A stretch of DNA of 64,000 nt from Idiomarina aquatica (GTDB lineage Bacteria > Pseudomonadota > Gammaproteobacteria > Enterobacterales > Alteromonadaceae). Of the stretch, positions 41,581-51,195 are shown in pieces. Under the pieces are notes generated by a model. The model made no database searches. It worked only from the letters and a program-made list of their open reading frames with translations, and was not told the origin of the DNA. Location: positions 1 to 64,000 of the forward strand of contig NZ_SNXI01000008.1 of assembly GCF_004362895.1 (NCBI RefSeq). The letters are read 5' to 3'. Position 1 is the stretch's first letter. Every line of letters begins with the position of its first letter. The position numbers and the translations under genes are program-made.

Positions 41581-41683
41581 GTTAAAAACCACGCAAATAG
41601 CAGGCTTTTCGCGGGCTTTTCGAATCATTTACGACAAGTGGTTGAAGGGTAAAGGCATTTTAAAGAAGTAAAAAAGAAGAAGG

Positions 41684-42038
<355 letters not shown>

Positions 42039-48257: not shown

Positions 48258-49522
48258 TATGACGTCACCCTTTCTGGTACCGGTTTCGTTTTCTCGCGTC
48301 GACTGTAAAAGAACAGGAACACGAAGAAGGCGAAATACAGGAATGTGAAGATTTGCGCAAACAACGTTGCCACCGGCGTCGCTGGTTGAGTACCTAAGTA
48401 TCCCAGCACCACAAAACTGATCACAAAGTTAACCAAGTTCAATTTGTGGAACATCGAACGATAACGAATCGAACGTACCTTGCCGCGGTCAATCCATGGT
48501 AGTAACGCAAGCAACACGATGGCCGCGAACATCAGGATAACGCCCAGCAGCTTGTCCGGCACCGCACGCAGAATTGCATAGAACGGCGTGAAGTACCATA
48601 CAGGTGCAATATGCTGCGGTGTCTTCAACGGATTCGCTGGTTCAAAGTTCGGCGGCTCAAGGAAGAACCCGCCCATCTCCGGATTAAAGAAAATCACGTA
48701 GCAGAAGAAGAACAGGAAGATACCAATACCGATCAGGTCCTTAACGATGTAGTAAGGATAGAAAGGAATCGCATCGACGATGTCGTACTTCTTGGTAAAC
48801 CGTTCGTGGAACTTAAATTTAGGTTTTTCTTCGTCCGGCACCGAGCCTTTTGGTTTCTTAATCGCGACACCATCAGGGTTGTTAGAACCAACCTCATGCA
48901 ACGCAATAATGTGCAGAAATACCAAAATAACCAGAACCAACGGCAATGCAATAACGTGTAGAGCGAAGAAGCGGTTCAGAGTCGCTCCCGAGATAACATA
49001 GTCACCACGAATCCACAGTGTCAGATCGTCGCCAATAACAGGAATCGCACCGAACAGGGAGATAATAACCTGAGCACCCCAGTAAGACATTTGTCCCCAA
49101 GGCAACAGGTAGCCCATGAAGGCTTCTGCCATCAGTACCAGGAAGATAAACATACCGAACAACCACAGTAACTCTCGTGGTTTCTGGTAAGAGCCATACA
49201 TCATCCCGCGGAACATGTGCAGATAAACCACCACGAAGAACGCAGACGCCCCGGTGGAATGCATGTAACGGAGTAACCAACCGTACTCAACGTCACGCAT
49301 GATGTATTCTACCGATGCAAAGGCGCCTTCAGCACTTGGCACGTAGTTCATGGTAAGCCAAACACCTGTCAGAATTTGGTTTACTAACACCAACATCGCC
49401 AGCACACCAAAGATGTACCACATGTTGAAGTTTTTCGGCGCAGGATACTGAGCAAGGTGGATATTCCACGTCTTGGTCATCGGGATGCGTTCGTCCATCC
49501 ACTGTATAAATTTGTTAGCCAT
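48257..49522 (-). CDS. petB: Ubiquinol-cytochrome c reductase, cytochrome b
   Basis: Membrane subunit with two b hemes and both quinone sites. Features: GWLLRYMHSTGASAFFVVVY with heme His, HMFRGMMYGSYQKPRE, MAEAFMGYLLPWGQMSYWGA, RFFALHVIALPLVLV with the second heme pair, and the Qo-site motif PPNFEPANPLKTPQHIAPVWYF (split here: PPNFEPANP, TPQHIAPVWYF). 421 aa with eight or nine membrane spans. Between petA and petC. Confidence 0.98.
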   Translation of the reverse strand: MANKFIQWMDERIPMTKTWNIHLAQYPAPKNFNMWYIFGVLAMLVLVNQILTGVWLTMNYVPSAEGAFASVEYIMRDVEYGWLLRYMHSTGASAFFVVVYLHMFRGMMYGSYQKPRELLWLFGMFIFLVLMAEAFMGYLLPWGQMSYWGAQVIISLFGAIPVIGDDLTLWIRGDYVISGATLNRFFALHVIALPLVLVILVFLHIIALHEVGSNNPDGVAIKKPKGSVPDEEKPKFKFHERFTKKYDIVDAIPFYPYYIVKDLIGIGIFLFFFCYVIFFNPEMGGFFLEPPNFEPANPLKTPQHIAPVWYFTPFYAILRAVPDKLLGVILMFAAIVLLALLPWIDRGKVRSIRYRSMFHKLNLVNFVISFVVLGYLGTQPATPVATLFAQIFTFLYFAFFVFLFFYSRREKTKPVPERVTS

Positions 49523-50112
49523 TACGCTTGCCCCTTCTCTTCGCCAACTAAGATGGTGTTGTCATCTACGTAGTAATGAGGCGGAACCACCAGGTTCAAT
49601 GGTGCTGGTACGCTTTGGAATACACGGCCGGCGATATCGAACTTGGAGCCATGACACGGGCAAAAGAACCCTGACGCAACGCCTTCGACGTGCTCGCCCA
49701 TACCGCTTTGATAATAAGTCGGCGAACAACCCAAGTGCGTACAAATACCAACGGCAACAAAGAATTCTTCTTTGATGGCACGGTATTTATTAGCAGCGTA
49801 TGAAGGCTGCTGTGGTTCTTGCGAATCAGGATCGCGTAAGCGGTCTGCGATGCCATCAAGTTCTTTCAGCATCTCAGGCGTACGACGTACGACCCAAACA
49901 GGTTTGCCTCGCCATTTAACACGGATCATCTGACCCGGCTCGGCCTTCGCGATGTTTACTTCAACCGGCGCTCCGGCGTTTTTGGCTCTCGCACTAGGGT
50001 TCCAGGAAGCAATAAAAGGAACGGCAACTGCCACCGCTCCAGCTCCACCGACAACCCCCGTCGCGACCGTCAAAAAACGACGGCGGCCTTTATCTACAGG
50101 CGCATTGCTCAT
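49522..50112 (-). CDS. petA: Ubiquinol-cytochrome c reductase, Rieske iron-sulfur subunit
   Basis: 2Fe-2S subunit that takes electrons from ubiquinol. Twin-arginine signal GRRRFLTVATG with an uncleaved membrane anchor, then the Rieske domain with Cys124-Thr-His126, Cys129, and Cys151-Pro-Cys153-His154-Gly; Cys129 and Cys153 form the expected disulfide. 196 aa. First gene of petABC; a sigma-70 promoter lies about 105 bases upstream. Confidence 0.98.
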   Translation of the reverse strand: MSNAPVDKGRRRFLTVATGVVGGAGAVAVAVPFIASWNPSARAKNAGAPVEVNIAKAEPGQMIRVKWRGKPVWVVRRTPEMLKELDGIADRLRDPDSQEPQQPSYAANKYRAIKEEFFVAVGICTHLGCSPTYYQSGMGEHVEGVASGFFCPCHGSKFDIAGRVFQSVPAPLNLVVPPHYYVDDNTILVGEEKGQA

Positions 50113-50242: not shown

Positions 50243-50287
50243 GACAAAAGGCGGGGCACGCCGTTGTTTATAGATTGCGTTAAGCGC

Positions 50288-50459
50288 AACGAAGCACCTG
50301 CAACAGGAAAACGCTTTTATTCGGCCTCGAGGGGGTCTGGGTCAGGAACCGCTCCAAGCACGTCCGTGTGGCTTGTGTCCGGGCATCCATGCCCTCCCAC
50401 ATTCCTGCCCCAGACCCCCTCGAGGCCAAATAGCGTTTCCCTGTTGCAGGCGCTTCGTT
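50288..50459 (-). repeat. Large cruciform repeat, element 1 (twin GGA-loop core)
   Basis: Two arms of about 60 bases (50288-50348 and 50402-50459) are inverted copies with only a few mismatches and one 3-base indel; they include CTGCAACAGG, CCTCGAGGGGGTCTGGG and CAGGAA. They enclose a 53-base core that, on the minus strand, matches the core of element 2. Arm sequences of the two elements are unrelated, so only the core is shared. Open frames over this element are by-products of the palindrome. Confidence 0.85.
50349..50401 (-). ncRNA. TwoAYGGAY-like structured core of element 1
   Basis: Read on the minus strand: hairpin 1 is GGGC-ATGGAT-GCCC (50381-50394); hairpin 2 is CAAG-C-CAC-ACGGAC-GTG-CTTG with loop at 50362-50367. 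Both 6-base loops fit AYGGAY exactly, and the flanking arms would close a three-way junction. This is the layout of the published TwoAYGGAY candidate RNA motif as I remember it. Its function is unknown. GGA in a hairpin loop is also the recognition feature of CsrA/RsmA. Confidence 0.7.
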
Positions 50460-50554
50460 ACGCAAAGCTCATACCCCATTAAAACTTTTGTACATTAATC
50501 ATACTAACGAAAATTGTCGATGCCTTTGGTGTAAAGTTATCAGCGTTTGGTGGT

Positions 50555-50707
50555 GCGGTCACACCGGTGCCGCTTGGTGTGACGCTACCCCGTCAGGCGG
50601 GGGTGTTGGAGGCCATGGATGGCCGGAAACAAGCCTACAGGGACGTACTTGTGGCGTCCCCCGACTGACGGGGTAGCGTTACATCAAAAAGGCAACGGTG
50701 TAATCGC
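50555..50707 (+). repeat. Large cruciform repeat, element 2 (twin GGA-loop core)
   Basis: Arms at about 50555-50604 and 50656-50707 are inverted copies (roughly four of five bases paired; GACGCTACCCCGTCAGGCGG on the left is the best-matched part). They enclose a core at 50607-50657 in the opposite orientation to element 1. The arms differ completely in sequence from those of element 1. Confidence 0.85.
50607..50657 (+). ncRNA. TwoAYGGAY-like structured core of element 2
   Basis: Hairpin 1 is GGCC-ATGGAT-GGCC (50611-50624). Hairpin 2 is CAAG-CC-TAC-AGGGAC-GTA-CTTG (50630-50651), loop 50639-50644. Compared with element 1, stem changes are compensated (GGGC/GCCC to GGCC/GGCC; CAC/GTG to TAC/GTA), while loop and linker (CCGGA-ACAAGC) are kept. 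The second hairpin reads TACAGGGACGT, one base away from the selected CsrA target UACARGGAUGU. Confidence 0.68.
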
Positions 50708-50723: not shown

Positions 50724-50748
50724 CCTTCGCGCCAAAGGCGCGAGCTAC
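50724..50748 (-). repeat. REP-like hairpin with GTAG foot, copy 2
   Basis: On the minus strand GTAG (50745-50748) leads into TCGCGCC-TTT-GGCGCGA. Compared with copy 1 at 5793-5816 the head GTAGCTCG is the same and the T-A stem pair is replaced by C-G, a compensated change. It sits between element 2 and the rpsI terminator. Confidence 0.55.
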
Positions 50749-50754
50749 GGCCAT

Positions 50755-50781
50755 AAAAAAACCCGGCGATGCCGGGTTTTT
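50755..50781 (-). terminator. Terminator of rplM-rpsI
   Basis: Stem AACCCGGC / GCCGGGTT (6 GC pairs plus A-T pairs, 50760-50778) with A-run on one side and T-run on the other; on the minus strand TTTTTTTATGG follows. It lies about 20 bases past the rpsI stop and could also act on the plus strand. Confidence 0.92.
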
Positions 50782-50802: not shown

Positions 50803-51195
50803 TTAACGCTTCGAGAACTGTGGACGCTTACGTGCTTTGTGTAAGCCGATTTTCTTACGTTCAACCTGACGAGCGTCACGCGTAACGTAGCCTTCTTTAC
50901 GTAGAGGACCACGGAATGTTTCGTCGTACTGCATCAAGGCACGGGTGATACCGTGACGGATTGCGCCCGCCTGACCGGTAGTACCACCACCACTTACAGT
51001 GATGTACAGGTCGAATTTTTCAGTCATTTCTACTGCTTCTAATGGCTGACGAACAACCATTTGTGCAGTTTCACGACCAAAGTATTCGCCTAGTTCACGG
51101 TTGTTGATTTGGATGTTGCCGCTACCCGGACGCAAGAAAACGCGAGCCGTTGAGTTTTTGCGGCGACCAGTACCGTAGTATTGATTATCTGCCAT
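50803..51195 (-). CDS. rpsI: 30S ribosomal protein S9
   Basis: Ribosomal protein with the conserved [19 protein letters not shown] start (partly quoted), [18 protein letters not shown] and the basic tail [11 protein letters not shown] that reaches the P-site tRNA. 130 aa as in E. coli. Cotranscribed with rplM, 15 bases downstream. Confidence 0.99.

Follow-up and report, generated by a model that had tools for sequence, protein, structure and literature searches.

The window, by which we mean the whole 64 kb stretch of DNA analysed here, carries two long hairpins of opposite orientation (50284-50463 on the minus and 50562-50700 on the plus strand) in the gap between genes that, from their translations, we take to be petA (49522-50112, minus strand) and rpsI (50803-51195, minus strand). 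They belong to a family of elements that are probably dispersed CsrA-catching RNAs and that come, go and flip in genomes. Inverted repeats (50284-50318/50429-50463, 50318-50348/50402-50432 and 50574-50603/50658-50687) and folding confirm the sequence-only reading of the gap, which had described two oppositely oriented elements with a common twin-hairpin core. As RNA, element 1 folds at -139.7 kcal/mol (z -15.7) and element 2 at -94.2 kcal/mol (z -8.7), and in each case 0 of 200 shuffled sequences folded as well. The core comprises a stem TGTT/AACA (TGTG/CACA in element 1), a GGA/GGA internal loop and a stem GGNC with an ATGGAT loop, followed by a linker and a second hairpin with the loop ACGGAC or AGGGAC. 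The loops are those named in that reading, and the compensated stem changes that it pointed out, GGGC/GCCC against GGCC/GGCC and CAC/GTG against TAC/GTA, are present. The features of the pair are as follows.

50284..50463, minus strand: element 1, a long hairpin with 60 arm pairs, a 3' AAA bulge after 28 pairs and the twin-hairpin core at the tip (inverted repeats, fold)
50329..50421, minus strand: core of element 1 with 20-bp inner arms (model match, R1 101.0 bits, R2 76.0 bits)
50385..50390, minus strand: first hexaloop of element 1, ATGGAT, on stem GGGC/GCCC (sequence)
50362..50367, minus strand: second hexaloop of element 1, ACGGAC, on stem CAC/GTG (sequence)
50562..50700, plus strand: element 2, a long hairpin with inner arms 50574-50603/50658-50687, an AAA bulge and an outer helix (inverted repeats, fold)
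50584..50677, plus strand: core of element 2 with 20-bp inner arms (model match, R1 103.3 bits, R2 90.2 bits)
50615..50620, plus strand: first hexaloop of element 2, ATGGAT, on stem GGCC/GGCC (sequence)
50639..50644, plus strand: second hexaloop of element 2, AGGGAC, on stem TAC/GTA (sequence)
50464..50561, no strand: spacer of the divergent pair, without a promoter-like site in the scan

Searching the window with covariance model R2, which was built only from other organisms (80 aligned matches from named relatives), returns exactly two matches, the two elements (E 2e-16 for element 1 and 5e-20 for element 2, the E-values of R1 and R2 being rough). The promoter scan yielded 1 site against 0.5 expected over all 751 bases scanned, and 0 in the spacer. 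A REP-like palindrome with a GTAG head, GTAGCTCGCGCCTTTGGCGCG on the minus strand, lies beside the pair at 50728-50748; palindromes like it flank, in inverted orientation, the element pairs at C12 and C3, and short matches to it recur in genomes of the genus that are without the element. At 50755-50781, an A-run, CCCGGCGATGCCGGG and a T-run resemble, by eye, a two-way terminator behind rpsI, which the terminator scan did not list. Elsewhere in the window, 41683-42036 on the minus strand is RNase P RNA of class A.

The two elements are part of a larger set within the genome. A core pattern, CATGGATGN{12,40}ASGGAYGT, has 24 exact matches in 2.95 Mb, with 0 for the reversed control. The copies, which the sequence-only reading had proposed to count, amount to 32 in this genome with covariance model R1, the window pair included (weakest rough E 2e-6), and more are found in relatives. 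In an alignment of 20 of the genome's own copies, 98.3% of the cells of the structure are paired, compared with 70.5% after shuffling, and 23 of the 33 pairs have changed on both sides. Most own copies have, after 28-29 pairs, a 3' bulge of 2-3 bases that are mainly A; those with the CTGGCGCC stem carry a 5' bulge after 23-26 pairs instead, and a few fit neither geometry cleanly. The lack of relation between the arms, claimed for the window pair, holds family-wide: the copies have cores in common, nearly identical in sequence, with no shared arm ends and with unrelated outer arms, and only 4 of 496 pairs of 5' arms from the 32 copies are detectably similar at E 1e-4. The core type of element 1 is that of the copy at C18:8714, and the inner arms of these two look alike by eye, although this pair is not among the four. 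All nine own pairs of elements less than 500 bp apart are divergent, and the spacer of several pairs, at a few to about 24 nt, leaves no room for a promoter. Among held-out neighbours within the same distance, 14 of 19 are divergent, 3 convergent and 2 tandem.

Conservation of the structure extends to named relatives, in whose genomes at least 119 stretches fit the core pattern. R1 aligned 80 matches from 80 of these loci, and in this alignment 31 of the 32 pairs have changed on both sides and 94.7% of cells are paired, as against 56.5% after shuffling and 39-45% with slid partners. Covariation is also seen in the linker, between alignment columns 86 and 91 (T-A in 50 and C-G in 23 of the 80 rows), whose bases stand two nucleotides apart; it may reflect a CUUG-like turn or a third partner common to both. 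The mismatches in the arms indicate which molecule is selected. Perfect DNA palindromes should give G-T and A-C mismatches in equal numbers on either strand, so an excess of G-U on the GGA strand points to selection on one single strand. Read on that strand, the own copies contain 74 G-U and 16 A-C mismatches (21 copies to 1), and 119 distinct copies (from 135 rows) contain 282 and 69. Named relatives found by the core pattern alone, with the arms ignored, show the same bias (86 to 33; 34 copies to 8) in a set of 83 rows reduced to 68 by dropping 4 near contig ends and 11 with fewer than 12 arm pairs; stricter trimming leaves 52. A corresponding bias of G-A over C-T is seen in the own copies (35 to 6) and is absent (24 to 26) in one trimming of the named set. 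These data show that the GGA strand, as one single strand, is what is selected, and not a duplex cruciform, and together with the covariation they back the earlier proposal of selection on a single-stranded structure. That proposal, which read 'RNA or single-stranded DNA', is narrowed to one strand; by itself the strand test fits both kinds of molecule.

Loop statistics were taken from model-found sets only, because pattern-found sets have fixed loops; R1-found sets are biased to the structure of R1 in the inner 20 pairs. Among 87 distinct R1-found relatives (from 103 rows; 9 omitted for gaps in the first loop and 1 in the second), A1, G3, G4 and A5 are kept in at least 76 of 78 first and at least 84 of 86 second loops, and a C-G pair closes the first loop in 85 and the second in 84 of the 87. 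Position 2 may be any base (first loop T52 A14 G8 C4; second loop T39 G34 C8 A5). R2 found 34 elements in whole genomes, and 33 of them fit the loop pattern too, in each of the two loops. According to PMC4005645, a high-affinity Csr/Rsm site is a hexaloop ANGGAX placed directly on a stem, and both loops of the element have this form. The SELEX consensus of CsrA, given as RUACARGGAUGU in PMC7652899, occurs 8 times in the genome, where about 1.4 occurrences are expected by uniform composition and the reversed control gives 0; 7 of the 8 lie inside elements. The eighth (G000:C1:150765-150776) immediately precedes an ATG start, a position that would suit a CsrA target site, and marks a candidate CsrA-controlled gene.

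The genome has one canonical csrA (G000:C12:66506). Across the class, a CsrA match is present in 56 of 60 element genomes (counted by hand) and in 216 of 261 others (P 0.046), and among good genomes only in 48 of 49 and 196 of 227 (P 0.024); this co-occurrence weakly supports the CsrA reading, and the genomes are related by descent. Four element genomes are without a CsrA match, namely G083, G144 and G175 (67-88% complete) and G270 (98% complete), and the G270 element (L309) has intact loops despite this. A further point against a CsrA site is that the first-hairpin stems are long and GC-rich, whereas the SELEX ligands of PMC7652899 mostly have at most 4 stem pairs. Moreover, PMC7694677 reports that RsmU was still bound by RsmA after all four of its GGA motifs had been changed, and GGA loops alone are therefore no proof of a site. 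An independent lead comes from Pseudomonas putida KT2440: PMC7937890 lists a 'long palindromic region' and stretches next to ISPpu8 copies among the RNAs recovered in pull-downs with each of the three Rsm proteins; this palindromic region is a candidate relative of the element.

The element is widespread and its copy number is variable. R1 finds it in 14 of 19 genomes of the genus, with 5 lacking it and 0-32 copies per genome, and, in a filtered search, in at least 16 of 59 genomes of the family. In the class, which we judged from the named relatives to be Gammaproteobacteria, R2 finds it in at least 60 of 321 genomes, a lower bound given strict filters and the scoring of at most 13 candidates per genome. 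The named relatives include Marinobacter, Xanthomonas, Stenotrophomonas, Halomonas and Shewanella among others, and R2 matches 34 of 39 further loci outside its building set (58 matches). A blastn search of plasmids with two queries gave no match. In viral contigs at least 120 stretches fit the core pattern, of which 2 of 80 tested loci fit R2, and most of these pattern matches are attributed to chance.

Comparison between relatives shows that the elements are gained, lost and inverted. By simple ORF calls, 23 own sites comprise 14 convergent gaps, 8 co-directional gaps, 0 divergent gaps and 1 contig end, a bias with P 1e-4 (convergent) and 2e-3 (divergent) against an assumed 25%. Across the 19 genomes of the genus, the petA-rpsI gap holds the pair in the window genome (690 bp), a fused remnant in G061 (465 bp) and, in G068, a single element that differs in type and in its arms (417 bp); in the remaining 16 it is short (218-280 bp) and no element was seen. 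At other sites common to the window genome and G061, types and arms can differ entirely. At C1:381658 (L147 against L172) the core is inverted in G061 between conserved arms, direct evidence of a flip at the palindrome tip; at C12 it is the entire region of the pair that is turned around relative to its flanks. Hypermutation of the arms is not indicated, the arms at sites shared with G061 changing at an ordinary pace, with some paired changes. G142 and G110 carry the element in units that are almost the same from copy to copy and that end in shared terminal inverted repeats, as in a MITE, whereas the outer arms of the own copies are unrelated; G348 has identical cores with different arms; and G073 has, at 7 fetched places (L152-L158), copies of a unit of about 680 bp that contains two divergent elements, the copies being 92-96% identical (L341, having no core, was omitted from the comparison). 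The suggestion that the core is the functional or mobile unit thus holds for the core as the conserved unit, while mobility is backed for the whole element; the exchange of arms proposed with it is not needed to explain arm diversity, since recent amplifications copy the arms along.

The nearest described family is TwoAYGGAY (RF01731), with which the sequence-only reading had matched the design. The likeness in design stands: both have two hairpins with ANGGAY loops, a long outer stem of low sequence conservation, a conserved linker and a 3' CGUC-like stretch, and window-type elements also share a tandem-GA-like internal loop (GGA/GGA) in the first stem. Membership does not follow, as scores are below gathering everywhere scanned: element 1, for which TwoAYGGAY is the top sub-threshold Rfam hit, reaches 29.5 bits against a gathering score of 43, the best score elsewhere is 33.7, and no match at gathering score was obtained in the window, in 20 loci of relatives or in 15 named loci. 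Sub-threshold matches touch 3 other elements in the 8 sources scanned. Three of the four window loops (ATGGAT twice, ACGGAC) fit AYGGAY and AGGGAC does not, the family as a whole being ANGGAY; unlike TwoAYGGAY, the element may have A or G at loop position 2, and it has much longer arms, many copies per genome and divergent pairs. TwoAYGGAY was noted in gammaproteobacteria and Clostridiales, and the statement that its function is unknown is out of date: a 2014 paper by Gardner and Eldai (PMC4333381) proposes that it binds CsrA, a prediction that we make for the element too.

The decoys CsrB, CsrC and RsmX/Y/Z resemble the element in their GGA hairpin loops, ANGGAX hexaloops that would bind CsrA, but they have many sites rather than two per unit and are encoded by one or two fixed genes rather than dispersed in variable number. 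The CsrB model (RF00018) exceeds its cut-off in 0 of the 19 genus genomes and has 1 weak match, in the element-free G074. RsmU of Xanthomonas campestris, an RsmA-binding RNA derived from a 3' UTR, is similar in lying behind a gene; homology was rejected, as the model matched nothing behind comEA in 4 Xanthomonas genomes, although two elements lie elsewhere in those loci. sRNA-Xcc1 (RF02221) gave no match at gathering score. REP/BIME and MITE sequences are likewise short palindromes that recur between genes and frequently form inverted pairs where genes end, but the element differs in combining free arm sequence with a conserved core and in having no tie to a Y1 transposase; RAYT mobilisation, as for REP, was rejected for lack of co-occurrence with this transposase. 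In the open-licence library searched, we found no description of a dispersed long-armed twin-hairpin family.

The explanation that we put somewhat above an even chance is a dispersed RNA element, read from the GGA strand, whose twin hexaloops bind CsrA and whose copies titrate it. A long double-stranded stem of free sequence bears at its tip two small C-ANGGAY-G hexaloop hairpins, with a GGA-to-GGA distance of about 24 nt at which one CsrA dimer or two could bind the loops. Copies transcribed behind genes would bind CsrA and lower its free level, acting as a scattered Csr decoy, and the long arms may provide a stable, decay-resistant handle. Because the elements vary both in where they sit and in how they face the genes next to them, their main role is not to control petA or rpsI in cis; the position of elements behind gene ends, their gain and loss between relatives and the inversion of one core argue instead for action in trans, with the copies serving as scattered decoys for CsrA. 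The analysis establishes the fold, the strand, the conservation, the dispersal, the gain and loss and the core inversion, whereas transcription, CsrA binding and titration are inferred. Counting against this reading are the lack of a promoter-like site in the spacer of the window pair, the short spacers of several other pairs and the five genus genomes that do without the element.

An unlikely but substantial competitor is a selfish MITE- or REP-like mobile element, whose RNA fold serves the element itself through transcript stability or its own use of CsrA, with CsrA titration incidental. The range of copy numbers within one genus, presence and absence at the same gap, the near-identical units of G142 and G110 with their terminal inverted repeats, the recurring G073 unit and the harmless gene-end sites all agree with selfishness. 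However, no transposase is tied to the element (Y1 occurs in 11 of 19 genus genomes, is absent from 7 element-rich ones and is present in 4 of the 5 element-free ones), the copies in the window genome lack common arm ends, the plasmid and viral searches gave no match and 2 of 80 loci, and selfishness alone does not predict a free loop position 2 within a fixed ANGGAX. We give less credence still to a gene-end element acting in cis, that is, an insulator, a 3' processing signal or an mRNA-stabilising hairpin between mostly convergent genes, whose GGA loops would bring CsrA or some other factor to 3' UTRs. The predominance of convergent sites and the lack of divergent ones would suit it; against it stand the two inversions relative to G061, the empty petA-rpsI gap in most relatives, and the divergence of every own pair, by which the element nearest a gene end reads antisense.

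Two further readings address the palindrome as DNA. A single-stranded DNA hairpin, attC- or IS200-like, that serves a recombinase or HUH nuclease would pass the mismatch test as RNA does, and the fixed bulges (3' AAA after 28-29 pairs, or 5' after 23-26) recall recombinase hairpins. It seems very unlikely, however, because the loops match an RNA-binding consensus in detail, Y1 transposase shows no association and the inverted-repeat arms explain the core inversion. Most improbable is that these are functionless quasi-palindromes kept perfect by template switching in replication. Such a process could keep arms of unrelated sequence paired and could invert a core, but equal counts of G-U and A-C would have favoured it, and G-U is tolerated above A-C; moreover, loops, linker and bulge are conserved, and conservation reaches across orders.

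Within the reading of the element as a dispersed CsrA decoy, one tentative extension, to which we assign a chance well short of even, is a genome-scattered mobile CsrA sponge, in which selfish palindromes across much of the class would bear twin high-affinity CsrA sites and their copy number and transcription, and not one CsrB-like gene, would help to set the level of free CsrA, with arms diversifying under pairing alone and the CsrA-binding core held fixed. What is new is the dispersed, mobile, long-armed form, the idea of CsrA binding by TwoAYGGAY having been proposed already. CsrA regulates metabolism and lifestyle globally, and the antagonists known for it are a small number of dedicated RNAs. 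With twin CsrA-type loops in each copy, a widespread and unannotated repeat class would supply each genome with tens of further potential decoys, in sets that vary between close relatives. The 2014 prediction of CsrA binding by TwoAYGGAY-like RNAs would become directly testable, and the family offers a clean case of arms that keep their structure without their sequence and of a functional core that flips inside its own inverted repeats.
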